Positions 8,860-34,077 of a DNA stretch of 39,930 nt are shown here, piece after piece. Positions within the stretch are counted from its first letter, which is position 1. The number at the start of each line of letters is the position of its first letter. The stretch covers positions 1 through 39,930 of the forward strand of contig JAOHDU010000008.1 in the NCBI GenBank assembly GCA_028096805.1, read 5' to 3'. A program made the position numbers and the translations under genes. Source of the stretch: Pontimonas sp. GTDB taxonomy: Bacteria > Actinomycetota > Actinomycetes > Actinomycetales > Microbacteriaceae. Under the pieces are notes generated by a model. The model was not told the DNA's origin and searched no databases. It was given only the letters and a program-made list of their open reading frames with translations.

Positions 8860-11007
8860 TCAGTCGATGCTGAACGGAGCGACAGACAGGCCCGACTTGT
8901 CCTCGAGCAGGTCCACACGCACGGTGTCACCGTCTTGGATTTCTCCCGCCAAAATGGCCTGGGCAAGCCGGTCATCGATTTCCCGTTGCATCAATCGTCG
9001 CAGTGGGCGCGCCCCGTAGATCGGGTCGTAGCCATTCTCCGCAAGCCACAATCGGGCTGCGGGAGTGACCGCAAGCTCCAGTCGGCGTTCCGACAGGCGC
9101 TTCTGCAAACGATCCACGGTTATTTCGACGATTTGGCCGAGGTCTTCGCTAGTGAGAGTGGAGAAAACGACGATGTCATCCAGCCGGTTCACAAATTCCG
9201 GCTTGAAGGCCTGGCGCACCTCAGCGTTCACCGCTTCCACTTTGGCGGACCACTCCAGGGATTCATCAGTCAGGTATCCCGAGCCTAGATTAGAGGTCAA
9301 GACCAAAATGGTGTTCCGGAAATCAACGGTCCTACCCTGGCCATCGGTCAGTCGACCATCGTCCAAGACCTGGAGCAGAAGGTCAAAGACTTCAGGGTGT
9401 GCTTTCTCCACCTCATCCAGCAGGATCACCGAATAGGGGCGACGCCGAACAGCTTCAGTCAGCTGGCCACCCTGTTCGTAGCCGACGTAACCAGGAGGAG
9501 CCCCAATCAGTCGTGACACCGAAAACTTCTCGCCGTACTCGCTCATATCGATGCGCACGAGCGCTTTTTCGTCATCAAACAGGTAGTCAGCCAGCGCTTT
9601 CGCAAGCTCTGTCTTACCCACACCCGTGGGTCCGAGGAAGAGGAACGAGCCGGTCGGCCGGCTCGGGTCACTCAGACCCGCACGTGTGCGGCGAACAGCA
9701 TCGCTGACGGCCGTGACAGCATCCTTTTGCCCGACCAGTCGTTTGGCCAACTCTGCTTCGAGGTGGAGCAGACGTTCAGTCTCCCCCTGAGTGAGCTTGT
9801 CGACGGGGATTCCTGTCCAGGCAGCCACTACAGCAGCGATGTCCTCATCGGTCACCTGGTCATTGACCATCCGGTCGTCGCTCTTTTCTTGCGACTCGGC
9901 AGCTGCGATAGCTTCTTCAATTCCCGGAATCACTTCGTAGTTCAGCTTCGAGGCCTCTTGGTACTGCCCTTCTCGCATCGCGCGATCCAAGTCGATCCGG
10001 GCCTCGCTGAGTTTGGTCTTCAGTTCTCCCACATCCTGGAGGGAGGCTTTCTCTTTCGCCCACCGCTCCTGCAGTGCGCCCAATTGCGCTTCTTTCGCAC
10101 CCAGGTCTTCACGCAACTTGCTGAGGCGCTCTTTTGACGCGTCGTCTTTTTCTTTTTTCAGCGCCAACTCCTCAATTTTGAGGCGGTCCACACTTCTGCG
10201 GAGCTCATCGATCTCGACGGGCGATGACTCAATTTCCATCTTCAGCCGACTGGCTGCTTCGTCGATCAGGTCGATGGCTTTGTCGGGCAACTGACGAGAG
10301 GTGATGTAGCGGTTGGAGAGGGTTGCGGCGGCCACGAGAGCGCTATCGGCGACCACCACTTTGTGGTGGGCTTCATAGCGCTCTTTCAACCCGCGAAGGA
10401 TTGCGACCGTGTCCTCAACACTGGGTTCACCGACAAAGACCTGCTGGAACCGGCGCTCCAAAGCTGCGTCCTTCTCGATGTATTCGCGGTATTCATTGAG
10501 CGTGGTGGCGCCAATCAGGCGCAGTTCGCCGCGGGCCAGCATCGGTTTCAACATATTGGCGGCTGCGACAGATCCTTCGCCGCCACCAGCACCCATCAAC
10601 GTGTGGAGTTCGTCAACAAACGTGATGATTTCGCCTTCAGCATCGTTGATTTCCTTCAAGACTGCTTTGAGGCGCTCTTCAAACTCACCCCGATACTTCG
10701 CGCCAGCAACCAAAGCCGCCATGTCCAGGGAAATCAATTGCTTCCCCTTGAGAGAGTCGGCGACGTCACCAGCAACAATTCGCTGGGCAAGTCCCTCAAC
10801 CACAGCGGTCTTCCCCACACCGGGTTCACCGATCAGCACCGGGTTGTTTTTGGTGCGGCGGGTGAGTACCTGAGAGACCCGTCGGATCTCCGAATCGCGA
10901 CCGATCACCGGATCAAGTTTCCCTTCCCGAGCGATGTCGGTCAGGTTCATTCCATATTGCTCTAGAGAACTCTTCTGCTCTTCTTGCTGGGGGTTACCGT
11001 TAGGCAT
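8860..11007 (-). CDS. clpB: ClpB-type disaggregase lacking the N-terminal domain
   Basis: A double-AAA+ chaperone of about 715 residues that works with DnaK to pull apart aggregates. Walker A motifs GEPGVGKT (about 60-67) and GPTGVGKT (about 459-466) and Walker B FVDELHT and LLDEVEK are intact. The coiled-coil middle domain typical of ClpB lies at about 270-390, and the pore loop [11 protein letters not shown] is present. The usual N-terminal substrate domain of about 150 residues is missing: the protein begins just before the first AAA+ module. ATG at 11007 is preferred because AAAGGA lies upstream; an earlier GTG-type start would run into hspR. It is the last gene of the dnaK operon, 11 bp after hspR. 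Confidence 0.93.
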
Positions 11008-11018
11008 TGCTGAGTCCT

Positions 11019-11462
11019 TTACGCATCGTGTTGGCGGGAGGGTGGAAGTATGCCTCGAAGGGGGTTCCACAGCACCACTTGATTGGATTTTTTGGCGCGC
11101 TCTCCGGCACGCAACGGGATAACGTCGCCTTCAGCGCCAGCCGCAAACACGCGGCGTCCAGAGCGAACAAGAATTTCATCGGCCAGAGTGGATTCGAGAT
11201 CGCGCACCCTTTTGGTCAGGCTATCGACCTGCTCCTCCAACTCCACAATTCTTTTGATGCCCTCGAGGTTGAGCCCCTCCGAGCTCAAGCGCTGAACTTC
11301 CCGAAGCTTCACCACGTCCTTCATGGAGTAGCGTCTGGTGCGCCCGGCCGTGCGCGTGGGAGAAACGAGCCCGAGTCTGTCGTACTGGCGCAAGGTTTGC
11401 GGGTGCATGCCGGCAAGCTCAGCCGCAGCTGTGATGGAAAAGAGCGGGGTTAGCTCATCCAT
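11019..11462 (-). CDS. hspR: HspR, MerR-family heat-shock repressor
   Basis: A 147-residue MerR-type regulator. The N-terminal winged helix reads [23 protein letters not shown] and [17 protein letters not shown], the pattern of HspR, followed by a dimerising coiled coil (about 70-95). HspR binds HAIR sequences (CTTGAGT-N7-ACTCAAG) with DnaK as co-repressor and releases when DnaK is busy with unfolded proteins. The gene sits in the operon it should repress, between dnaJ (7 bp gap) and clpB. Matching operators are seen before dnaK. Confidence 0.92.
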
Positions 11463-11469
11463 GACTCAC

Positions 11470-12426
11470 CTACCCTTTCGCTCGCTTAACCAGATCCTCA
11501 CGGGGGTTCTCATTAGGCAGTGCCGCCATCAGTTTCTCGAGGTGACCTTTTGCCGCACCCGACAGGTGGGAGGGGACCGCAACCTGCAGTTCAACAAGCA
11601 GGTCACCCAGTGCTGCTCCGGCCCGCACGCCTTTACCCTTTACGCGCAGCACCTTCCCGCTCGGGGTACCCGCGGGGATTTTGACTTTGACGATCTCGCC
11701 ATCAATCGTGGGGACTTCCACCGTTGCGCCCAGGGTGGCCTCGCCAAAGGTGATTGGAACGTCGATGCGCAGGTGATCACCATCTCGCGAATAAATCTGG
11801 TGCTTGGGCACTCCGACGGTAATGATCACATCACCGGCTTTTCCACCATCAGGGCTGGGGTGGCCTTTGCCTCGTAGTCGCACCTTTTGTCCGTCTTTGA
11901 CTCCGGCGGGAACGCGAGCAGTGATTTTCTTGCCGCCGGGCCCTTCGAGAGTGACGTCAGTGCCTGCAATAGCCGTCTTCAAATCGATGGTCACGCGCGA
12001 GACAACGTCGCGGCCTTTGGTGGGCTCGCGGTAACCATTGAAGCCACCACCCCCGCCACCGAAGAGACCAGAGAAAAGGTCGCCGTAATCTCCCGAGGGA
12101 GCGCTGCGCGGCATGCCGCCGCCAAACATGCCGCCAAAGACGTCCTCAAAACCGCCCTGCGAACCTCCCGCGCTAAACCTGGGCCCGCCCGATTGCATCG
12201 TGCGAATTTGGTCATACTCTGCGCGTTCATTCTTGTCAGAGAGCACCGAATAAGCCTCCGACACCTCTTTGAAGCGTGCCTCGGCCTGAGGGTCATCCCG
12301 GTTTACGTCCGGGTGATACTTTCTCGACAGGGAGCGATAAGACTTCTTGATTTCTGCATCAGAAGCACTCTTGGATACGCCAAGAATCTTGTAAAAGTCC
12401 TTTTCTAACCAATCCTGGCTAGCCAT
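11470..12426 (-). CDS. dnaJ: DnaJ co-chaperone without zinc-finger domain
   Basis: A 318-residue J-protein. The J domain with HPD (RKYHPDVNRDD) occupies about residues 10-75, followed by a Gly/Phe-rich linker with GGMFGGG and GGGGGGFNGY, then two beta-barrel substrate domains (about 145-300). There are no cysteines, so the CxxCxGxG zinc-finger modules of classical DnaJ are absent and this is a class B (CbpA-like) protein. It stimulates DnaK ATPase. AAAGGAGG precedes the ATG. It is 18 bp downstream of grpE. Confidence 0.93.
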   Translation of the reverse strand: MASQDWLEKDFYKILGVSKSASDAEIKKSYRSLSRKYHPDVNRDDPQAEARFKEVSEAYSVLSDKNERAEYDQIRTMQSGGPRFSAGGSQGGFEDVFGGMFGGGMPRSAPSGDYGDLFSGLFGGGGGGFNGYREPTKGRDVVSRVTIDLKTAIAGTDVTLEGPGGKKITARVPAGVKDGQKVRLRGKGHPSPDGGKAGDVIITVGVPKHQIYSRDGDHLRIDVPITFGEATLGATVEVPTIDGEIVKVKIPAGTPSGKVLRVKGKGVRAGAALGDLLVELQVAVPSHLSGAAKGHLEKLMAALPNENPREDLVKRAKG

Positions 12427-12444: not shown

Positions 12445-13038
12445 CTACTCGTCAGCCGGTACTTTGACGGCCACTTTGGCGGGACGCACCAGCTTGTCGC
12501 CCAGGATGTAACCACCCTCGATGACGTCCGCGACCGTCTCGCCCTCAGCTCCCGCTTCGGGAAGCCGGACCATCGCCTCGTGCTTGGCGGGATCAAAAAC
12601 TTCGCCCACCTCACCTACAGCCGTGAGGCCGTAGCGCTCAAAACTGGCACGCAGTTTTTGTGCCACAAGTTCCAGGGGTCCACCGGCTAAATCCCCGTGG
12701 GCATCCGCGCGATCCAAGTCATCCATCACGGGCAACAGGGCACGAATCACTTCGGCAATAACAGCCTCGCGATTCGCCTGACGGTCCCGCTCCACCCGCA
12801 TGCGGAAGTTTTGGAGCTCGGCCTCAGCGCGCGCAGCACGATCACGGTATTCCGCCACCAAGTCACGCTCTGCTTCGGCAAGAAGCTCGATGTCTTCCTC
12901 GGTGATGTCGTCCCCTGAGGCAGCTTCTGCTGCCTCAGGTCGGACATCGCCTGTCTCAGGATCTACCCGTCGTTTATCGGTGAAGAGGGGTTGCTCTTGT
13001 TCCTCTTCTTCGCGCTCGGGTTTGTCTGACTTTGGCAT
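12445..13038 (-). CDS. grpE: GrpE nucleotide exchange factor
   Basis: A 197-residue GrpE. A disordered acidic N-terminus (EREEEEQEQ, then SGDDITEEDIELLAEAERD) leads into a long coiled coil with AELQNFRMRVERDR (about 75-88), then the beta domain with EVFDPAKHEAMVRLPEAG and the closing GYILGDKLVRPAKVAV. It releases ADP from DnaK and may act as a thermosensor. It begins 5 bp after the dnaK stop, so translation is probably coupled. Confidence 0.95.
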   Translation of the reverse strand: MPKSDKPEREEEEQEQPLFTDKRRVDPETGDVRPEAAEAASGDDITEEDIELLAEAERDLVAEYRDRAARAEAELQNFRMRVERDRQANREAVIAEVIRALLPVMDDLDRADAHGDLAGGPLELVAQKLRASFERYGLTAVGEVGEVFDPAKHEAMVRLPEAGAEGETVADVIEGGYILGDKLVRPAKVAVKVPADE

Positions 13039-13043
13039 CGTGT

Positions 13044-14912
<1,869 letters not shown>

Positions 14913-14934
14913 TTACGTCATGTAGTGGCCCATA

Positions 14935-14955
14935 TATGAGCCGAGATGACTCAAG
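14935..14955. promoter_or_regulatory. HAIR-like HspR operator 1
   Basis: On the plus strand tATGAGc, seven bases, ACTCAAG. The right half-site matches the HAIR consensus 7 of 7, the left 4 of 7, with the exact seven-base spacer. Confidence 0.65.
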
Positions 14956-14962
14956 TTTGCAA

Positions 14963-14983
14963 CATGAGTCGACCCTTGTCAAG
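14963..14983. promoter_or_regulatory. HAIR-like HspR operator 2
   Basis: CATGAGT, seven bases, tgTCAAG; 6 of 7 and 5 of 7 matches to the consensus halves. It overlaps a minus-strand TTGACA (14977-14982) that could be a -35 of dnaK. Confidence 0.6.
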
Positions 14984-14997
14984 TATTTCTTTCAAAA

Positions 14998-15018
14998 TGT
15001 GAGTCGCTAGCGCTCATA
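14998..15018. promoter_or_regulatory. HAIR-like HspR operator 3
   Basis: tgTGAGT, seven bases (CGCTAGC, itself near-palindromic), gCTCAta; 5 of 7 and 4 of 7 matches. It is the weakest of the three but keeps the exact spacing. Confidence 0.45.
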
Positions 15019-15074
15019 TATTGACAATTCACCGCGACGAAAGGCCGTGTTTAGGCACGGCGCGGTCCTCCCGC

Positions 15075-15080
15075 TACGGT
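15075..15080 (+). promoter_or_regulatory. -10 box, leaderless promoter of the MFS transporter
   Basis: TACGGT, then six bases (TATTAC), then ATG 15087. A TTGACA at 15021-15026 lies too far upstream to be its -35. Confidence 0.5.
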
Positions 15081-15086
15081 TATTAC

Positions 15087-16484
15087 ATGGCCAACGACGG
15101 TTCACACACTCCCCACCCTGCCCCTCTTGCCGACACGGACGCGCTTCCGATTGTTGGGCTCACCCTCAACCAGGACGCGGTCATCCCGAAACGCCGGGTC
15201 TGGTCGTGGGCGCTGTGGGACTGGGCAACCCAGCCTTTTGCGAGCGTCATCACAACGTTTGTCTTCACCGTGTACGTCACCAGCTCGCTCTTCCTGCCCG
15301 AAGATATCCGGGCGTTGGGTGAAGACAGTGACGCCTATCAACGCGGTCTCGCCGAGCTCTCCAGCGATTTGGGTTTTGCCATCGCCCTAGCGGGCGTCGT
15401 CGTGGCTCTGCTGGCCCCGGTCCTGGGACAACGCTCCGATCGTGCAGGTCGCCGCAAACTATGGTTGGGCACCAATACGGGGCTCGTTGTTCTCGCCCAG
15501 GCCAGCATGTTCTTTGTCGAGGCGACGCCGTCGTTCTTCTGGCTGGGAATCACTCTCGTCGCTGCCGGGAATGTCTTCGCTGAGATTGCGAACGTGAACT
15601 ACAACGCCATGCTGGTGCAGGTTGCAAAACCCTCCACCGTCGGACGCGTCAGCGGGCTGGGTTGGGGATTCGGATACCTCGGCGGAATCGTTGCGCTGCT
15701 GGTCTCGTATTTCGGATTCATCGAAGGCGATGTTCTCGGGCTGGGTAGCGAAAACGGTATCGACATTCGTGCCATCGCCCTGTTCTGCGGGGTGTGGACG
15801 CTCATCTTCTCCCTACCGATCCTGTTCTTTGTTCCCGAGATTCCCGGCAAACCGCAGGGTGCCAAAGTGAACTTCCTCGCCAGTTACGGGGTGCTTCTGC
15901 GAGACGTCGTCGGGTTGTTTCGCACCTCGCGCACCACGTTCTGGTTCCTGGCCGCCAGCGCGATTTTTCGTGACGGCCTTGCCGGTGTCTTCACCTTTGG
16001 TGGGGTGCTCGCAGCCGTCACCTACGGTTTTAGCGCCAGCGAAGTGCTGATCTTTGGAATTGCCGCCAACCTGGGGGCGGGTCTCAGCACCATGCTGTCG
16101 GGACGCCTTGACGATGTCTTTGGTGCCCGCGCGATCATCCTTTTCTCCCTCGGCGGTCTTCTCGTGGCCGGGATGTCCCTGTTCTTTTTCCGTGACAGCG
16201 GTGCGACGGCGTTCTGGATTGCTGGGATGACGCTCTCGCTCTTTGTGGGCCCCGCCCAGGCCGCCTCACGGTCGTTCCTCGCACGCGTAACGCCTACAGG
16301 CCAAGAGGGTCAAGTGTTTGGTCTCTACGCGACAACGGGTCGCGCGGTGAGCTTCCTGACCCCTGCGCTGTGGGCGCTGTTTATCTCGATCGGGGGAGCT
16401 CAGTACTGGGGCATCCTCGGCATCATGACGGTGTTGGCGCTTGGACTCATCTTGATGATTTTCGTCAAGATGCCGCGCGCGTAG
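15087..16484 (+). CDS. UMF1/Atg22-like MFS transporter
   Basis: About 465 residues with roughly twelve transmembrane helices. The segment WSWALWDWATQPFASVITTFVFTVY near residue 30 resembles the start of the UMF1 family (vacuolar amino-acid effluxer Atg22-like), and RSDRAGRRKLWLG is the MFS loop between helices 2 and 3. Substrate unknown; in fungi relatives export amino acids. ATG 15087 is chosen over an upstream TTG at 15021 because of the leaderless promoter spacing. It is divergent from dnaK and ends 3 bp from the convergent carotenoid operon. Confidence 0.85.
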   Translation: MANDGSHTPHPAPLADTDALPIVGLTLNQDAVIPKRRVWSWALWDWATQPFASVITTFVFTVYVTSSLFLPEDIRALGEDSDAYQRGLAELSSDLGFAIALAGVVVALLAPVLGQRSDRAGRRKLWLGTNTGLVVLAQASMFFVEATPSFFWLGITLVAAGNVFAEIANVNYNAMLVQVAKPSTVGRVSGLGWGFGYLGGIVALLVSYFGFIEGDVLGLGSENGIDIRAIALFCGVWTLIFSLPILFFVPEIPGKPQGAKVNFLASYGVLLRDVVGLFRTSRTTFWFLAASAIFRDGLAGVFTFGGVLAAVTYGFSASEVLIFGIAANLGAGLSTMLSGRLDDVFGARAIILFSLGGLLVAGMSLFFFRDSGATAFWIAGMTLSLFVGPAQAASRSFLARVTPTGQEGQVFGLYATTGRAVSFLTPALWALFISIGGAQYWGILGIMTVLALGLILMIFVKMPRA

Positions 16485-16487
16485 TCG

Positions 16488-17357
16488 CTACGCAGCCTGC
16501 TGGGCCCACCACTCAAACAGCACAAGAAACACCACCGCACCGGTGATGAAGTTGAGCAGCAGAAACCATCTCCAACCGCGGTTCGCTGATTCGGCTTTCT
16601 CATCGGTGACCCGCCACCAGGGCAGCACCGCCGCCATATAGAGCACCACGGTGGGTGCAATGAGAGGCAAGGGGGGTGGGGTACTCAGCATGACTAGCCC
16701 GGCTGCCGCATAAGCAACCAGGGCGAACCGAACCGCCCCGGCGGCTCCGATCGCTGTGGCGATCGAGGAAAGCCCTGCCTCCCGATCGGCGAGGACGTCT
16801 TGAACCGCGCCAAAGGCGTGAGACGCCATTCCCCAGAGGAAAAACGCGACAAGCAGCGTGAAGGCACTCCGGCTCGGCGAAGAGCCACCCACGGCCAGCC
16901 CAAACACCGCGGGCATCACAAAATGAGCGCTCGAGGTGAGGGAGTCAAGAAAGGGGATTTCCTTGAAGCGCAGCCCTTTGGCAGAGTAGGCAATCACAAA
17001 GAAGAGGCTGAGCGCCAGAATTCCGGTCGACGCTACCGTCCCCCACCACACAAGGACGCCAACGAAAGGGACGCTCAGCGCGACGCTCGCAATCAGCGTT
17101 GCGCGGTGCAGATCAGGCGGCAACAACGCTCCCTCAACACCCCCCTTGCGCGGATTGCGAAGATCCGATTCGTAGTCGAAGACATCGTTGATTCCGTACA
17201 TCAAAAAGTTGTAGGGAATCAAAAAGAACAAGAACCCGAAGGCTAAGACCGGATCAAACGATTCCGTCACCACGTAATACGCGAGCGCAAAGGGCACGGC
17301 GGTGTTCACCCAACTCAACGGGCGTGAGCTCAGAACCAGGGTACGCAGGGTCCGCAT
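16488..17357 (-). CDS. crtEb: Lycopene elongase, UbiA-type prenyltransferase
   Basis: A 289-residue membrane prenyltransferase of the UbiA superfamily. The first Asp-rich motif is INDVFDYESD (N57, D58, D61, D65) and the second is DVLADREAG (about 205-213), with about eight membrane helices. Position at the end of a crtB-crtI-cyclase operon indicates lycopene elongase: it adds two C5 units from DMAPP to make C50 carotenoids such as flavuxanthin. ATG 17357 overlaps the crtYf stop as TAATG, and that coupling decides the start over the longer in-frame option at 17393. Last gene of the operon. Confidence 0.88.
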   Translation of the reverse strand: MRTLRTLVLSSRPLSWVNTAVPFALAYYVVTESFDPVLAFGFLFFLIPYNFLMYGINDVFDYESDLRNPRKGGVEGALLPPDLHRATLIASVALSVPFVGVLVWWGTVASTGILALSLFFVIAYSAKGLRFKEIPFLDSLTSSAHFVMPAVFGLAVGGSSPSRSAFTLLVAFFLWGMASHAFGAVQDVLADREAGLSSIATAIGAAGAVRFALVAYAAAGLVMLSTPPPLPLIAPTVVLYMAAVLPWWRVTDEKAESANRGWRWFLLLNFITGAVVFLVLFEWWAQQAA

Positions 17358-17662
17358 TAACCCAGCTCCTGGGGTCTCTCGAACGCGTGCCATAGTGCGG
17401 GGATCATCAGCACAGCAGCCAGCGTGTACGCGAAATCTTCGATCGGCGCAACACCGATCCTCACACCGCTAATCAAAAGCTCGTCGTAGTCGACAAGCCC
17501 AAAGCCGATAATCGCGTTGTCAAAGACTGCGGTCAAAAGCATCATGACCGCCGCGGCAATCCACCAGGGCTTCGCGTGCACCCTCGACCCGCGCCGATGG
17601 GCAAACCAAAAAACCAGAAGCGCAATAACCAGAAACGGCAGATTGATAAGGGAATAGATCAT
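17357..17662 (-). CDS. crtYf: C50 carotenoid cyclase, small subunit 2
   Basis: A 101-residue, three-helix membrane protein of the heterodimeric lycopene-cyclase-domain family. APIEDFAYTLAA is the counterpart of the P-x-E-E/D-x-x-F motif. With the previous gene it should form one active cyclase that closes the rings of the elongated C50 carotenoid. ATG 17662 overlaps the crtYe stop as ATGA. Whether the rings are epsilon, beta or gamma cannot be told by eye. Confidence 0.85.
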   Translation of the reverse strand: MIYSLINLPFLVIALLVFWFAHRRGSRVHAKPWWIAAAVMMLLTAVFDNAIIGFGLVDYDELLISGVRIGVAPIEDFAYTLAAVLMIPALWHAFERPQELG

Positions 17663-17985
17663 CTCGCTGCCCTCCCAACCATGGCTTTTCGCGCCAACAA
17701 ATACGCAATGAGCGTGGAGTAGCTCAGCAGTGTGAGAAAGAACGCTTCCTCCAACGGCAGCTCTGGCCCCAACAACACCCCCGTCATCCACGGCCCCGTT
17801 CCGCGAAAAAAAACCCCGGTGACAATTCCGACCACATCCCACACGAGGAAGAACGCGACCGAGAGCGCCACAATGAGGATCGTGCGACCAGCTGCGCCGC
17901 CGAACAGGGCTAAGCGATGGCGAAAGTCCAGGAGGCCGGTGCCAAGTAGAGCCCCGACTAAAGCAGAAAGATAAACGAAGGACAT
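17659..17985 (-). CDS. crtYe: C50 carotenoid cyclase, small subunit 1
   Basis: A 108-residue protein with three hydrophobic helices and the conserved ELPLEEAFF motif of CrtYcd/CrtYe-type lycopene cyclase subunits. It pairs with the overlapping downstream gene. It starts 7 bp after the crtI stop. The naming follows the Corynebacterium glutamicum decaprenoxanthin cluster; ring type is not proven. Confidence 0.85.
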   Translation of the reverse strand: MSFVYLSALVGALLGTGLLDFRHRLALFGGAAGRTILIVALSVAFFLVWDVVGIVTGVFFRGTGPWMTGVLLGPELPLEEAFFLTLLSYSTLIAYLLARKAMVGRAAR

Positions 17986-17992
17986 CGCCCTT

Positions 17993-19579
17993 TTAGGACA
18001 CCGGCACGAGAGGCTCAGGTAGCGGCCCCGTGGAGACGTCGCCTCTCACGCGCTTGAGCAGAACTTCCGCACTAATCAAACACATCGGCAGCCCGATTCC
18101 GGGAATCGTGGAAGATCCCGCGTAGTAGAGCCTGTCAACTTTTTTGCTGACATTGCCAGCACGGAACAGCGCGCTTTGCATCAGCGTGTGCGCCGGGCCC
18201 AGAGCTGTTCCCTTCCAAGCGTTCAATTCGCCCGCGAAGTCTGCCGGTCCCACGCTGCGGCGGACGACAATCCGGTCAGCCAAATCGGTTGCGCCACTCC
18301 AGCGCATGATTTGCTCAATCGCTCGATCCGCAATCCCTTCGACCTGCGGGTCGCCGGTCCCATCGAGCCCGCCGTGCCCGAGTCCCACATCGGCGGGCAT
18401 GGGGACCAGCACAAAGAGGTTGGTGTGCCCCCTCGGGGCAACGCTCGAATCCGTAGCGCTCGGTTTGCACACGTAGAGAGATGCTGGCGAAGGAACCGTG
18501 GGCTTATCGGCGAAAATCTGGGAGAAATTGGAATCCCAGTCTTGCGTGAAAAACAAACTGTGGTGCAGTAACTCCGGAACTTCACCCTTCACTCCGAGAT
18601 ACAGAAGCACTGCACTGGGACCAGCCACCTTCTTGTCCCACCATTTCTGGGGATAGGTCTGAAGTTCCGGCGGCAACAGGGTGGTTTCGCTGTGGTGGAG
18701 GTCGGTGGTGGAGACCACCATGTCTGCCGAAAGAGTGTGGGTGTGCCCGTCGGCATCCTTGTAGGTAATGCCCGTCGCTTTTGCTTTCCCACCAGAACGC
18801 TCCGTAGCGATCGCCGTAGCCTTGGTGCCGGTCATAATCGTGACGCCGTGGTCTTCAATGATTTCTCGCATCGAATCGATCACCCGCGTGAAGCCGCCCT
18901 CGGCGTAGAGAACGCCGTCTTGCAGGTCCAGGTGTGACATCAGGTGGAACATGCTGGGGGCGATGTAGGGGCTTGAGCCCAAAAAGACGGCCGGGTAGCC
19001 AAGGATCTGGCGAATACGGGGGTTTGCCGTGTACTTTTTCGCAAACGTCATGATCGGGGTTGTCAGCAGTCGGACCAGGGTTCCCGTGCGCGAGAGGACT
19101 TCCTTGACCAACAGCGGGCGCAGATCCTGAAACGATGTGTAGAGAAAGTGCTTCTTCGCGATTTCGTAGGTCTCTTCGGCCGAGTCGAGATACTTCTCCA
19201 TGCTGGCGCGAGAACCAGGCTCCATTTCTTCGAGCAAGGCCAAGTTGTCCTCGCGGGTTGCCCGGATGTCGACAAACTCCGCCGGTTCGCTGGAGGATGG
19301 CTCGAAATACACCCGGTAACCCGGGTCGAGCTTGGTCAGCTTCAAGTGCTCCGCCGCGGAACTCCCCATCAACCGGTACCAGTGGTCAAAGACCTCGGGC
19401 ATCAGATACCAAGAGGGCCCGGTGTCGAAGCGGAAACCGTCTTTCTCCCACAGGCCTGCCCGCCCTCCGAGGCGTGAGTGTGCCTCGACCAGAGTGACGT
19501 CATAGCCGTCTCGCGCCATCAGGCCCGCCGTCGCGATACCGCCAATACCGCCACCGACAACAACAACGGACTTAGCCAT
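17993..19579 (-). CDS. crtI: Phytoene desaturase
   Basis: A 528-residue CrtI-type FAD enzyme that takes phytoene to lycopene. The N-terminal dinucleotide fold is VVVVGGGIGGIATAGLMARDGYDVTLVE (split here as VVVGGGIGGIATAG with the acidic end E36), followed by RLGGRAG. The C-terminal flavin motif is LYYAGSSTIPGIGLPMCLIS. Length is normal. The start overlaps the crtB end by 8 bp. Confidence 0.95.
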   Translation of the reverse strand: MAKSVVVVGGGIGGIATAGLMARDGYDVTLVEAHSRLGGRAGLWEKDGFRFDTGPSWYLMPEVFDHWYRLMGSSAAEHLKLTKLDPGYRVYFEPSSSEPAEFVDIRATREDNLALLEEMEPGSRASMEKYLDSAEETYEIAKKHFLYTSFQDLRPLLVKEVLSRTGTLVRLLTTPIMTFAKKYTANPRIRQILGYPAVFLGSSPYIAPSMFHLMSHLDLQDGVLYAEGGFTRVIDSMREIIEDHGVTIMTGTKATAIATERSGGKAKATGITYKDADGHTHTLSADMVVSTTDLHHSETTLLPPELQTYPQKWWDKKVAGPSAVLLYLGVKGEVPELLHHSLFFTQDWDSNFSQIFADKPTVPSPASLYVCKPSATDSSVAPRGHTNLFVLVPMPADVGLGHGGLDGTGDPQVEGIADRAIEQIMRWSGATDLADRIVVRRSVGPADFAGELNAWKGTALGPAHTLMQSALFRAGNVSKKVDRLYYAGSSTIPGIGLPMCLISAEVLLKRVRGDVSTGPLPEPLVPVS

Positions 19580-20483
19580 GATGATCCTCTCTCACGCCAC
19601 GGGGAGCTTGGGGGACAACACCCACCAGGACTTTCAGCGCCAACCAGAACTTGCTGACCGTAGGAACACTAATACGGGTGGTCTGCAAAACTCCTGCGGG
19701 AGTAGCCCGAATGCGGACCGCCAGGGCTTCGAACAACGTATGGGCAAGACTCACCGCTCGGCGCGGGCCTGCGGGCAGGAGCGGCACAGCTTTCGCCGAC
19801 TGAGCAAGGTCACGGTCAATGTCCTCAAGCAAACGCTCCTTTACGTCATCGGTCAGCTCATCGACCACAACATCCGGGAAGTAGCTGCGACCTAGTGCTT
19901 GCGCATCGGCTCCAAGATCACGTAAGAAATTGACCTTCTGGAATGCTGCGCCGAGAGCCCGTGCTCCGCTGACCATAATCTCGCGCTGTTCGGCGGTCAC
20001 GCTCTGGCCCTGAAGGAACGCTGCGAGGCACATGAGTCCCACAACCTCGGCCGACCCGTAAACGTAGTCTGCAAAAGACTCTGGGGTGTGCGTGGTTTCG
20101 CTCAAATCCATGCGCATGGAATGAAAGAACGGTGTGGTCAGTTCGCTTCCCACCCCCACTTGGCGGGCGGAGTGGGCAAAAGCGTGCACGATGAGATTAG
20201 TGCTGTAGCCCACCTCGAGCGCGCGGTTCGTGTCTGCCTCGAGAGCATCCAGCATCACCGCCGCCTCGGCTACATCCACGCCGGCCTCATCGGCAACCCC
20301 ATCCACGACTTCATCTGCCAACCGGACCAGCGCGTAGAAATTTCCGATGTGGGTGCGCATTTTCTTATCCAACAGGCGCGAAGCGAGGCCAAACGAGGTG
20401 GAATAGCGTCGGATCACGCCAGCGGAGGTCTCCTCCGCAACACGGGTATAGAGGTCGATGCGGGTATCCAGGTCAACCGCCAT
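19572..20483 (-). CDS. crtB: Phytoene synthase
   Basis: A 303-residue squalene/phytoene synthase, joining two GGPP to phytoene. The first Asp-rich motif is ADEVVDG (D57, D61) and the second is FLRDLGADAQALGRSYFP (D189, D193). It is first in the operon crtB-crtI-crtYe-crtYf-crtEb. GAGAGGA stands about eight bases before ATG 20483. The gene usually upstream, crtE for GGPP, is absent; idi lies divergently instead. Confidence 0.94.
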   Translation of the reverse strand: MAVDLDTRIDLYTRVAEETSAGVIRRYSTSFGLASRLLDKKMRTHIGNFYALVRLADEVVDGVADEAGVDVAEAAVMLDALEADTNRALEVGYSTNLIVHAFAHSARQVGVGSELTTPFFHSMRMDLSETTHTPESFADYVYGSAEVVGLMCLAAFLQGQSVTAEQREIMVSGARALGAAFQKVNFLRDLGADAQALGRSYFPDVVVDELTDDVKERLLEDIDRDLAQSAKAVPLLPAGPRRAVSLAHTLFEALAVRIRATPAGVLQTTRISVPTVSKFWLALKVLVGVVPQAPRGVREDHHG

Positions 20484-20529
20484 GGTTGTTTCCTCTCCCG
20501 CCGCCTCGTGAGCCCATTGGCTACACTGT

Positions 20530-20543
20530 TGTGGTCTGCCACA
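20530..20543. promoter_or_regulatory. Inverted repeat between crtB and idi
   Basis: TGTGG-TCTG-CCACA, a perfect 5-bp dyad in the 109-bp gap between the divergent crtB and idi starts. It could bind a dimeric regulator of both units, or be chance. No regulator gene is adjacent. Confidence 0.35.
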
Positions 20544-20592
20544 CAGGCAATCAACTCTTCACTTTACCGTTGCACACGAGGGCAAGAAACCC

Positions 20593-21138
20593 ATGACAAC
20601 CCCCGAACTTGTGGTCCTCCTCGACGCCGATGAGAGACCAACCGGTACCGCCGACAAGGCCACGGTCCACACCACAGACACCCCCCTGCACCTGGCTTTT
20701 TCCTGCCACGTGTTCAACGACAAGGGTGAAGTTCTCATCACCCGGCGCGCACTATCGAAGAAGACCTGGCCAGGTGTGTGGACGAACTCCGCGTGCGGGC
20801 ACCCCGGCCCTGACGAAAGCATGGAGGACGCCATTCGCCGCCGCGCGGAACACGAACTGGGCCTGACCTTGGACTCTATTTCGATTGCTCTGCCGGACTT
20901 CCGCTACCGAGCTGTCGACGCCTCGGGCATTGTGGAAAACGAAGTCTGCCCCGTGTTTATCGCCACCACGTCCATGGACCCTTCCCCGGCGCAGTCAGAG
21001 GTGTGCGAATGGAAATGGGCCGCCCCCGAGGCTGTTCGCTCGGGTGTTGAGCACACCCCTTTTGCTTTTAGCCCCTGGTTGGTGGACCAAATGGCAGCGT
21101 GGACCGGGCCCTACGCTCCCGAGGTGTCTGAGCGGTGA
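20593..21138 (+). CDS. idi: Isopentenyl-diphosphate delta-isomerase, type I
   Basis: A 181-residue Nudix-fold isomerase that interconverts IPP and DMAPP. The catalytic cysteine is C68 (TNSACGHPG) and the catalytic glutamate E116 ([10 protein letters not shown]), close to the E. coli positions 67 and 116. The Nudix-like box reads [17 protein letters not shown]. It supplies DMAPP both for chain building and for the lycopene elongase in the divergent operon. The end overlaps convergent dcd by 28 bp. Confidence 0.95.
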
Positions 21139-31987: not shown

Positions 31988-32962
31988 CTAGTAAGCCATG
32001 CTTCGGTCGACAGCATCCAGAATTCGATCGACGTCTGGAAGGTAGTGACTCTCCAGCCGTGCAGGGGGGAAAGGCGTGTTAAAACCGCTGACGCGCAGGA
32101 CCGGCGCCTCCATCAGGTAAAAAGCCTTCTCGGTCATTGTTGCTGCAATCTCGCTGCCCAGGCTGGCCTGAGAGGGTGCCTCTTGCGCAATCACCAGTCG
32201 TTGGGTTTTGGTGACCGATTCCTCGATTGTCCGATAGTCAATCGGCGACAACGACCGAAGATCCACCACCTCAGCGCTGACCCCTTCGCTTTGGGCGACA
32301 TCGGCTGCCTGCAACAGCATGCTCACCATCGCGCCGTGCCCGACGAGCGTCACATCAGATCCCTCCCGCACCACGGCTGCCTGAGTCATGGCGGGTGCGG
32401 GTGTGGCGTCATCGACGGGGGCTTTGTGCCAGTAGCGGCTCTTGGGCTCCAGGAAAATCACCGGGTCGTCGCTGGCGATGGCCTGTTGAATCATCCAGAA
32501 AGCGTCGTTGGGGCTTGCCGGCGAAATGACCCGCAGCCCGGCAGTGTGAGCGAAGTACGCTTCGGGGCTTTCCTGGTGGTGCTCCACCGCACCGATATGC
32601 CCGCCATAAGGAATACGAATCACGACGGGGAACGACTGAGTTCCCTCATGGCGGGCCGTTTGCTTCGCAAGCTGAGTCACAATCTGGTCGAAAGCGGGGT
32701 ACACAAAACCATCGAACTGAATTTCACACACCGGCCGATAGCCGCGCATAGCCAAACCGATGGCGGTTCCCACAATTCCCGATTCAGCCAGGGGGGTGTC
32801 CACCACCCTGTTGGGCCCGAACTGCTCCTGCAGTCCCTCAGTGACGCGGAAAACTCCGCCCAGTTGGGCGATGTCCTCGCCCATCACCATGACCTTGTTG
32901 TTCTCGACCATTGCAGTGCGAAGGCCCTCGTTGATGGCTTTGGCCATGGGAAGCTCGTGCAT
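31988..32962 (-). CDS. 2-oxoacid dehydrogenase E1 beta
   Basis: A 324-residue transketolase-like beta subunit. MHELPMAKAINEGLRTAM, GEDIAQLGGVFRVTEGL and DTPLAESGIVGTAIG are the conserved TPP-side segments. IRIPYGGHIGAVEHHQESPEAYFAHTAGL and FLEPKSRYW follow (the first quoted in parts: PYGGHIGAVEHHQESPEAYF). ATG 32962 overlaps the E1 alpha stop as TAATG; the longer frame from 33010 is therefore rejected. It ends 23 bp before E2. Confidence 0.92.
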   Translation of the reverse strand: MHELPMAKAINEGLRTAMVENNKVMVMGEDIAQLGGVFRVTEGLQEQFGPNRVVDTPLAESGIVGTAIGLAMRGYRPVCEIQFDGFVYPAFDQIVTQLAKQTARHEGTQSFPVVIRIPYGGHIGAVEHHQESPEAYFAHTAGLRVISPASPNDAFWMIQQAIASDDPVIFLEPKSRYWHKAPVDDATPAPAMTQAAVVREGSDVTLVGHGAMVSMLLQAADVAQSEGVSAEVVDLRSLSPIDYRTIEESVTKTQRLVIAQEAPSQASLGSEIAATMTEKAFYLMEAPVLRVSGFNTPFPPARLESHYLPDVDRILDAVDRSMAY

Positions 32963-34077
32963 TACTGCCCCTCTTCCAGCGACTGGGTGTATTCCTTGAG
33001 CCACTCCCACTCATCGCTCATCAGCGCGTGGTCTTCGGTATACACGTGACGGAAGATGTCTTCCAAGGGCGGGTCTTCGATCGCCAATGTGCGGCGCCGA
33101 ATATCGGCTGCGTAATCGTCGGCTTCCTCGGCTACCGAATCAAAGAATGTGCCCTCAACGCCTTGTCCCTGCAGGAACGCGCGGAACCGGTCGATGGGGT
33201 CATGCGCTTGCCAAAACGCCAACTCGTCTTCATCGCGGTATTTCGTCGGGTCATCACTCGTGGTGTGGGCGCCAATGCGGTACGTGAGCGCTTCAATGAA
33301 ATGTGGTCCCTGGCCAGCGCGGGCGGCATCTAGTGACAGTCGGGTCGCCGCGTAGCTCATCAAAGCGTCGTTGCCGTCGATCTGCACGCTGGGAAGACCA
33401 AAGCCTGCCGCCCGCTCAAAAAGCGGGGTGCGCGACTGCACACGAACGGGGACAGAAATTGCCCAGTGATTGTTTTGCAAGAAAAACACCTGAGGCGTCT
33501 GGTAGCTCTGAGCAAAGATGAAGGCTTCGTTCGTGTCGCCCTCGCTGCTGGCGCCGTCGCCGAAATAGACCATGACCGCTTCGTCCTTATCGGGGTTTCC
33601 CGTCGAACACGCTCCGTCGTATCCGATACCCATGGCGTAACCGGTGGCGTGAAGTGTCTGTGAGGCCAACACCAGGGTGTACAAGTGGAAGTTGTTGGTC
33701 TTCTTAGGGTCCCAACCGCCATTGGTTACGCCACGAAGCATGCGGATGATGTCCAACAGGTCAAGCCCTCGCACATATCCCACCGTGTGTTCACGGTAGG
33801 CGGGAAAAATATGGTCTTGAGGTCGCGAGGCAAAGGCAGAGCCCACCTGCGCCGCCTCTTGGCCAATACTCGGGACCCACAAAGCCATATGGCCCTGCCG
33901 TTGGAGGTTTCCGGCTTCAACATCGAACCGTCTCACCACGGTCATCACCCGATAGAACTCACGGAAATCTGCCTCAGTCAGATGCGAGATGGCCTGGTGA
34001 TATTGGTCAAGTCCGTCACCTTGCACCAAGGTGCCATCTTGATTCAAGAGCCGGAGCGTCGAATCCGTGTAAGGCAT
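32962..34077 (-). CDS. 2-oxoacid dehydrogenase E1 alpha
   Basis: A 371-residue TPP-dependent alpha subunit. The TPP motif runs from GDGASSEGDTNEA (G173 onward) to the asparagines in FFLQNNHWAISVPV (N202). QEAAQVGSAFA and the phosphorylation-loop counterpart YRIGAHTTSDDPTKY are present. It decarboxylates the 2-oxoacid and passes the acyl unit to lipoate of E2. The ATG follows TAGGTT and six bases, so the whole operon may begin with a leaderless message. Confidence 0.92.
   Translation of the reverse strand: MPYTDSTLRLLNQDGTLVQGDGLDQYHQAISHLTEADFREFYRVMTVVRRFDVEAGNLQRQGHMALWVPSIGQEAAQVGSAFASRPQDHIFPAYREHTVGYVRGLDLLDIIRMLRGVTNGGWDPKKTNNFHLYTLVLASQTLHATGYAMGIGYDGACSTGNPDKDEAVMVYFGDGASSEGDTNEAFIFAQSYQTPQVFFLQNNHWAISVPVRVQSRTPLFERAAGFGLPSVQIDGNDALMSYAATRLSLDAARAGQGPHFIEALTYRIGAHTTSDDPTKYRDEDELAFWQAHDPIDRFRAFLQGQGVEGTFFDSVAEEADDYAADIRRRTLAIEDPPLEDIFRHVYTEDHALMSDEWEWLKEYTQSLEEGQ

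Follow-up and report, generated by a model that had tools for sequence, protein, structure and literature searches.

The question raised by this locus is whether the HAIR-like elements upstream of dnaK in Pontimonas form a single array of equivalent HspR operators and whether their control extends to a divergently transcribed MFS transporter gene. The window, that is, the whole stretch of DNA that was analyzed (39.9 kb), comes from a 990-kb draft genome (41 contigs). Profile searches placed dnaK, grpE, dnaJ, hspR, and clpB on its minus strand and the MFS gene, from 15087, on its plus strand, and all three HAIR-like elements lie within the 186-bp gap from dnaK to the MFS gene. The hspR gene, which scores above the NF047375 cutoff, is encoded in the predicted dnaK operon. 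The features of the locus are as follows.

8860-11070, minus strand: clpB-like disaggregase gene, overlapping the hspR end (1159.9 bits versus a cutoff of 1232.1)
11019-11462, minus strand: hspR, MerR-family heat shock repressor (NCBIfam NF047375, 135.8 bits, cutoff 105; Pfam MerR_1)
11470-12426, minus strand: dnaJ-like gene (J domain and DnaJ_C; NCBIfam matches under cutoffs)
12445-13038, minus strand: grpE (NCBIfam GrpE models, best E value 7.1e-36, under curated cutoffs)
13044-14900, minus strand: dnaK (NCBIfam DnaK equivalog, score above cutoff)
14909-14913, minus strand: Shine-Dalgarno sequence AGGAG of dnaK, read off the sequence
14935-14955, minus strand: proximal HAIR (site 1), CTTGAGT-CATCTCG-GCTCATA in the dnaK sense
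14954-14959, minus strand: -10 hexamer CAAACT of the dnaK promoter, with a 17-bp spacer (the commonest outgroup string, 29 of 88)
14963-14983, minus strand: middle HAIR-like site (site 2), CTTGACA-AGGGTCG-ACTCATG, its left half being the -35 box and its right half lying in the promoter spacer
14977-14982, minus strand: -35 hexamer TTGACA of the dnaK promoter, from outgroup conservation
14998-15018, minus strand: distal HAIR (site 3), upstream of the -35 hexamer
15052-15057, plus strand: predicted -35 hexamer of the MFS gene
15075-15080, plus strand: predicted -10 hexamer TACGGT of the MFS gene, 6 nt before the ATG, read by eye
15087-16484, plus strand: MFS transporter gene (MFS_1/Atg22-like; Pfam), given as context

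A zinc-finger domain was not found in the dnaJ-like product (11470-12426) by the Pfam search, and in the ClpB-like protein (8860-11070) Clp_N was not found, the profile match beginning at ClpB position 146. Just past the MFS gene, at about 16488-21138 of the window, lies what we take to be a carotenoid-like cluster, its ORFs named from their translations: phytoene synthase, phytoene desaturase, lycopene cyclase pieces, a prenyltransferase, and an isopentenyl-diphosphate isomerase.

The initial annotation had described three imperfect HAIR-like copies starting at 14935, 14963, and 14998, and this description held in its particulars. The half-sites fall at 14935/14949, 14963/14977, and 14998/15012, with seven bases between the members of each pair; the first copy has the perfect ACTCAAG half (14949-14955), and the TTGACA said to be overlapped by one copy is the minus-strand TTGACA (14982-14977) inside the middle site. 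A second TTGACA, on the plus strand at 15021-15026, stands just outside the distal site. Scored against the consensus CTTGAGT-N7-ACTCAAG, as quoted in PMC6102357, the three sites match at 11/14 (14935), 11/14 (14963), and 9/14 (14998) positions. Since the whole window contains four 11/14 and eight 10/14 matches, a single match means little. At a looser cut, two other clusters in the window pack two or three 9/14 matches into 84 bp, and there are five further clusters of two or three sites in all, one of them with three; the highest position weight matrix (PWM) score in the window (15.5, at 32995) lies in coding sequence and exceeds those of all three dnaK sites. None of 20,000 dinucleotide shuffles placed two 11/14 sites in the 186-bp intergenic region, and 113 of them had one such site; we regard conservation in relatives as stronger evidence than this shuffle test.

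Upstream regions of dnaK were gathered from the genus, family, and class, the dnaK start being readable in 113 of 124 loci (11 without); for the genus genomes G007 and G013 no dnaK start was obtained. Among 90 outgroup Microbacteriaceae upstreams of 300 bp, a count that omits six duplicate records and one locus with a short upstream (L075), exactly two HAIRs scoring at least 10/14 were found in 85, three in four, and one in one, so that at least two HAIRs precede dnaK in 89 of 90 loci. Mononucleotide shuffles of the same upstreams gave none in 83 and one in seven. The half-site conservation on which the initial annotation had staked its proposal is therefore present for two of the three elements across the family, while the middle one is found in 12 of 17 Pontimonas loci and in 1 of 88 outgroups.

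The same comparison allowed the dnaK promoter to be recognized because it is conserved in relatives, a generic sigma-70 promoter scan having returned nothing in the dnaK upstream region. In the 88 placed outgroup loci (L149 and L166 were left out, only a single site reaching the PWM cut), the -35 hexamer reads TTGACA in 65, TTGACT in 14, and TTGACG in 9, with a distal HAIR upstream of each. The HAIRs overlap both boxes of this promoter, the proximal one the -10 and the middle one the -35. The proximal site covers the last two -10 bases and the inferred transcription start, near 14947, in the window, and in 85 of the 88 placed loci it begins four bases into the -10 hexamer.

The distance between the outer sites follows a discontinuous rule. 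Measured start to start in the 88 placed family loci, a set that was not hand-picked, it is 52 to 55 bp (12 loci) or 62 to 65 bp (76 loci) and never 56 to 61 bp; in the window it is 63 bp. As read from these alignments, the permitted distances are five or six helical turns. A wider set was hand-picked: it took in 28 loci from the class or family and 8 of the 17 Pontimonas loci and omitted single-site class loci and seven f24 loci (22 to 23 bp); its 121 chosen pairs (88, plus 8 Pontimonas and 25 class or family pairs) fall at 52 to 55 bp in 24 cases and 62 to 65 bp in 97, with none at 56 to 61 bp. On the DnaK tree (124 rows, three short-spaced ones included), the spacing class changes 14 times, a figure that is approximate because 44 of 115 forks in this FastTree are open and four rows have 12% of the columns. 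Exceptions occur outside the family, in the seven f24 loci with sites 22 to 23 bp apart, most of them with a second site of low PWM score, and in f20 (L178 and L192; 27 to 28 bp); within the family, the sites of L200 are 29 bp apart, and L204 and L205 have only one site of at least 10/14.

Helical phase separates the outer pair from the middle site: the former is in phase in the window (63 bp) and in 88 of 88 family loci, and the latter lies 28 and 35 bp from its neighbors. Thus, the proposal that the array binds HspR cooperatively is indirectly supported for the outer pair, through helical phasing, and the middle site, out of phase with both neighbors, is not an equal member. Cooperative binding by the outer pair is plausible. 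However, as the proximal site keeps a fixed position relative to the -10 hexamer, the data fit either the other dimer or RNA polymerase as the partner of distal HspR, and a positional requirement of distal HspR relative to RNA polymerase might also underlie the five- or six-turn rule. Judged by conservation and spacing, the three sites do not form an equivalent set: sites 1 and 3, at a distance of 63 bp, make up the conserved pair, and site 2 is lineage specific and based on the -35 hexamer.

The middle site is partial in one of the remaining Pontimonas loci (L052) and absent in four (L047, L051, L053, and L054), and its presence requires two changes on the dnaK DNA tree. From this distribution, the outer sites are read as old and the middle site as a recent addition in part of Pontimonas only. 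It is important to consider that HspR might bind the outer sites only, the middle one being a by-product of the -35 hexamer and of a spacer kept for promoter strength or for another factor. A site-like score (PWM of at least 5) at the middle position in only 1 of 88 outgroup loci, its absence or partial state in 5 of 17 Pontimonas loci, and its phase relative to the outer pair would all agree with this reading, as would the fact that the -35 hexamer explains five of the seven left-half bases (CTTGACA resembles CTTGAGT). Nevertheless, over the 12 loci that have the site, ACTCA is invariant (0 changes in five columns), whereas the rest of the spacer varies: the seven columns before it have 3, 2, 3, 1, 4, 0, and 1 changes (14 in total) and the five after it 1, 3, 0, 0, and 1. 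Eight of the 17 spacer columns are unchanged, and by hand calculation the probability that these include all five ACTCA columns is about 0.009. Furthermore, the ACTCA half lies exactly seven bases from the -35 half, and in the near-identical sisters L045 and L046 the middle site outlasts the proximal one (11/14 and intact versus 8/14 and decayed). A comparable site also exists in L200 (G033, a 0.93-Mb Microbacteriaceae genome), where a -35-based HAIR, CTTGACA-N7-ACTCAAG, has a second site 29 bp on and no further site of at least 8/14 upstream within 190 bp.

The conservation of the middle site comes from one clade and the left half is nothing more than the -35 box; with these limits, we hold real HspR binding there to be fairly probable and its origin as a mere by-product possible but doubtful. 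The middle and proximal half-sites together form a regular lattice, with 14-bp steps in alternating direction. The L200 site resembles the Pontimonas middle site, yet it lies on another branch. Another stretch, GTTATCCACAGG-like, is common to the dnaK spacer between -35 and -10 in six loci (L201, L202, L203, L205, L209, and L211), and it resembles a DnaA box (TTATCCACA).

The distal site has drifted within the genus. In most Pontimonas, its palindrome is ATATGAGYC..GACTCATAT-like, replacing TTGAG..CTCAA, and another diverged form reads ATCTGAGTC..GACTCAGAT; most HAIR arms that are clear of promoter boxes have lost the outer T/A in Pontimonas. On the family PWM, 8 of 17 Pontimonas loci have a distal-site score below zero (-4.0 in the window; in L049, the low score comes from one extra base inside the palindrome), and for this reason Pontimonas HspR may bind it weakly. 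Examined by eye, the two arms can pair at the diverged position in 10 of 17 loci (A/T in seven and C/G in three) and not in the other 7, which supports a palindrome that may still work despite its poor score on the family matrix. At residue 42 of HspR, presumably in the wing, all 19 Pontimonas have T and all 71 named outgroups have S. Coevolution of operator and regulator through this residue was considered and rejected, as L197, L199, L204, and L205 carry T42 too and have mostly ordinary sites.

The exact core TGAGYC-N5-GRCTCA was found at 30 sites in 19 Pontimonas genomes, against 3 for the reversed-pattern control, and 21 of the 30, placed by hand from coordinates, are upstream of dnaK. Six of the nine other cores were inspected, and all six lie within long open frames; in L222 and L227 the core palindrome lies over what is probably the start region of a homologous gene, at the same place in both, and was taken as coding. 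With this core, no HspR target beyond the dnaK operon was evident in the 19 genomes, which are mostly drafts. As the operon includes clpB, HspR may have few other targets in Pontimonas, within what draft genomes can tell. A wider regulon in the window's own genome was considered and rejected: a HAIR scan allowing three mismatches gave no signal, with 230 matches per strand versus 257 for the reversed control. The two one-mismatch sites of that genome both overlap coding sequence, one at the start of a membrane-protein-like ORF (L001) and the other inside a binding-protein-like ORF (L002). The claim that HspR operators precede dnaK is strongly supported by hspR in the operon, the family-wide conservation of the outer sites, and the 21 of 30 core palindromes at dnaK.

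The initial annotation had also suggested that the array is a shared control region, making the MFS gene heat responsive, an idea that fared poorly and that we consider unlikely. The divergent pairing is indeed common in the family: 69 of 113 loci have a divergent MFS homologue, a count that takes in 6 duplicate records and 10 loci with the homologue over 400 bp from dnaK. In seven Cryobacterium loci, no more than about 16 bp separate the distal site from the MFS start, the starts being extrapolated from alignments. However, in 35 outgroup loci the distance from the distal HAIR to the MFS start takes values between about -7 and 136 bp, and in the window the predicted MFS -35 begins 33 bp beyond the distal site. 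None of the 10 homologues more than 400 bp from dnaK, some of which may be paralogues, has a HAIR scoring above 1.4 nearby; in L076, where the MFS gene is 378 bp from dnaK, the dnaK HAIRs fall in range. Heat control of the MFS gene is unlikely because the distances vary so widely and the distant homologues are without a HAIR. The history of the MFS gene also differs from that of dnaK: the MFS proteins of the window clade (the window, L041, and L042) group with L051-L054 (SH-aLRT 99) and not with L043-L050, the nearest dnaK relatives. In-place replacement of the MFS gene beside a conserved dnaK promoter is a likely explanation, with homologues in L041-L058. A TANNNT hexamer, read by eye, lies 6 to 7 nt ahead of the MFS start codon in Pontimonas upstreams, and this position suggests a leaderless transcript. 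The MFS gene is probably outside HspR control.

Regulation of dnaK by HrcA/CIRCE or ClgR, with an incidental HAIR likeness, is highly improbable: although both control chaperone or protease genes in Bifidobacterium according to PMC9004370, the CIRCE pattern TTAGCACTC-N9-GAGTGCTAA has no match in the window with up to three mismatches, the single one-mismatch ClgR match (at 32285) is about what chance would give, and hspR lies in the operon, with the HAIR pair found family-wide.

The region is very probably the autoregulated HspR operator of dnaK-grpE-dnaJ-hspR-clpB, with an outer pair of sites and a later middle HAIR. Around the observed site positions, conservation, spacing rule, and lineage distribution of the middle site, we infer HspR binding, repression, and cooperativity as follows. 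HspR on the outer sites would enclose the TTGACA-N17-CAAACT promoter from both ends and keep it closed at normal temperature, probably by contact with other HspR or with RNA polymerase. Unfolded proteins would then draw off the corepressor DnaK, HspR would be released, and the operon, hspR included, would be transcribed; in mycobacteria, DnaK is described as an HspR corepressor that is lost to unfolded proteins (PMC10415612). In most Pontimonas, a third half-site would have arisen in the spacer and, with the -35 box, would form the middle HAIR beside the proximal one, probably adding a directly competing HspR dimer and being maintained by selection.

A broader reading is offered tentatively, the balance leaning slightly against it: throughout Microbacteriaceae and several other actinobacterial families, HspR might repress dnaK by joining two dimers across the promoter, and in Pontimonas a third operator derived from the -35 might have evolved and, in L045 and L046, might have begun to replace the proximal one. 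Two dimers joined in this way would let the spacing jump from five to six turns and skip the distances between.

These results emphasize, on sequence evidence, that small-genome marine Microbacteriaceae appear to retain an HspR-controlled chaperone operon, the clpB-like gene included. The spacing of five or six turns provides a testable rule for HspR dimer placement, and the -35-derived third site offers an example of a repressor operator possibly growing from a core promoter. In addition, the view of three sites as an equal array is corrected, and heat control of the adjoining transporter is made unlikely. The additions to a kind of system already known from Streptomyces and Bifidobacterium are modest, namely, the phasing and the late third operator; our literature search, whose reach did not extend to the original Streptomyces papers, returned no title on HspR operator phasing, and novelty is not claimed.

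For the dnaK operon of Streptomyces coelicolor, HspR and three HAIR inverted repeats have been described (Bucca et al. 1995, as cited in PMC6102357 and PMC2687793). The present locus is similar in having several HAIRs of the same consensus ahead of the dnaK operon, HspR binding being known there and predicted here; likewise, four loci of the large-genome family f19, presumed from genome size to be Streptomyces-like, have two strong HAIRs 52 bp apart. In contrast to S. coelicolor, the pair here is six turns apart, and the third element, found in only part of one genus, occupies the -35 and the spacer. The clpB-like gene lies within the operon here, whereas clpB and lon are separate HspR targets in S. 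coelicolor, according to PMC2687793. As in Pontimonas, two HAIRs are found upstream of dnaK in Bifidobacterium breve, B. longum, and B. adolescentis, while B. animalis has one; Bifidobacterium clpB, and clgR in B. breve, carry separate sites (all from PMC9004370), and in the mostly draft Pontimonas genomes no target beyond the dnaK operon is evident with the exact core. On the Helicobacter pylori Pcbp promoter, HspR covers about 70 to 80 bp, and three dimers have been modeled as cooperating there (PMC6102357). The array described here is similar in extent, spanning 84 bp. On Pcbp, the same source reports one central HAIR with unrecognized flanking determinants, whereas here a site is visible for each putative dimer. 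With hspR in the operon, HAIRs at the promoter, and conservation in relatives, the locus fits the autoregulated actinobacterial HspR/HAIR type in its sequence features.
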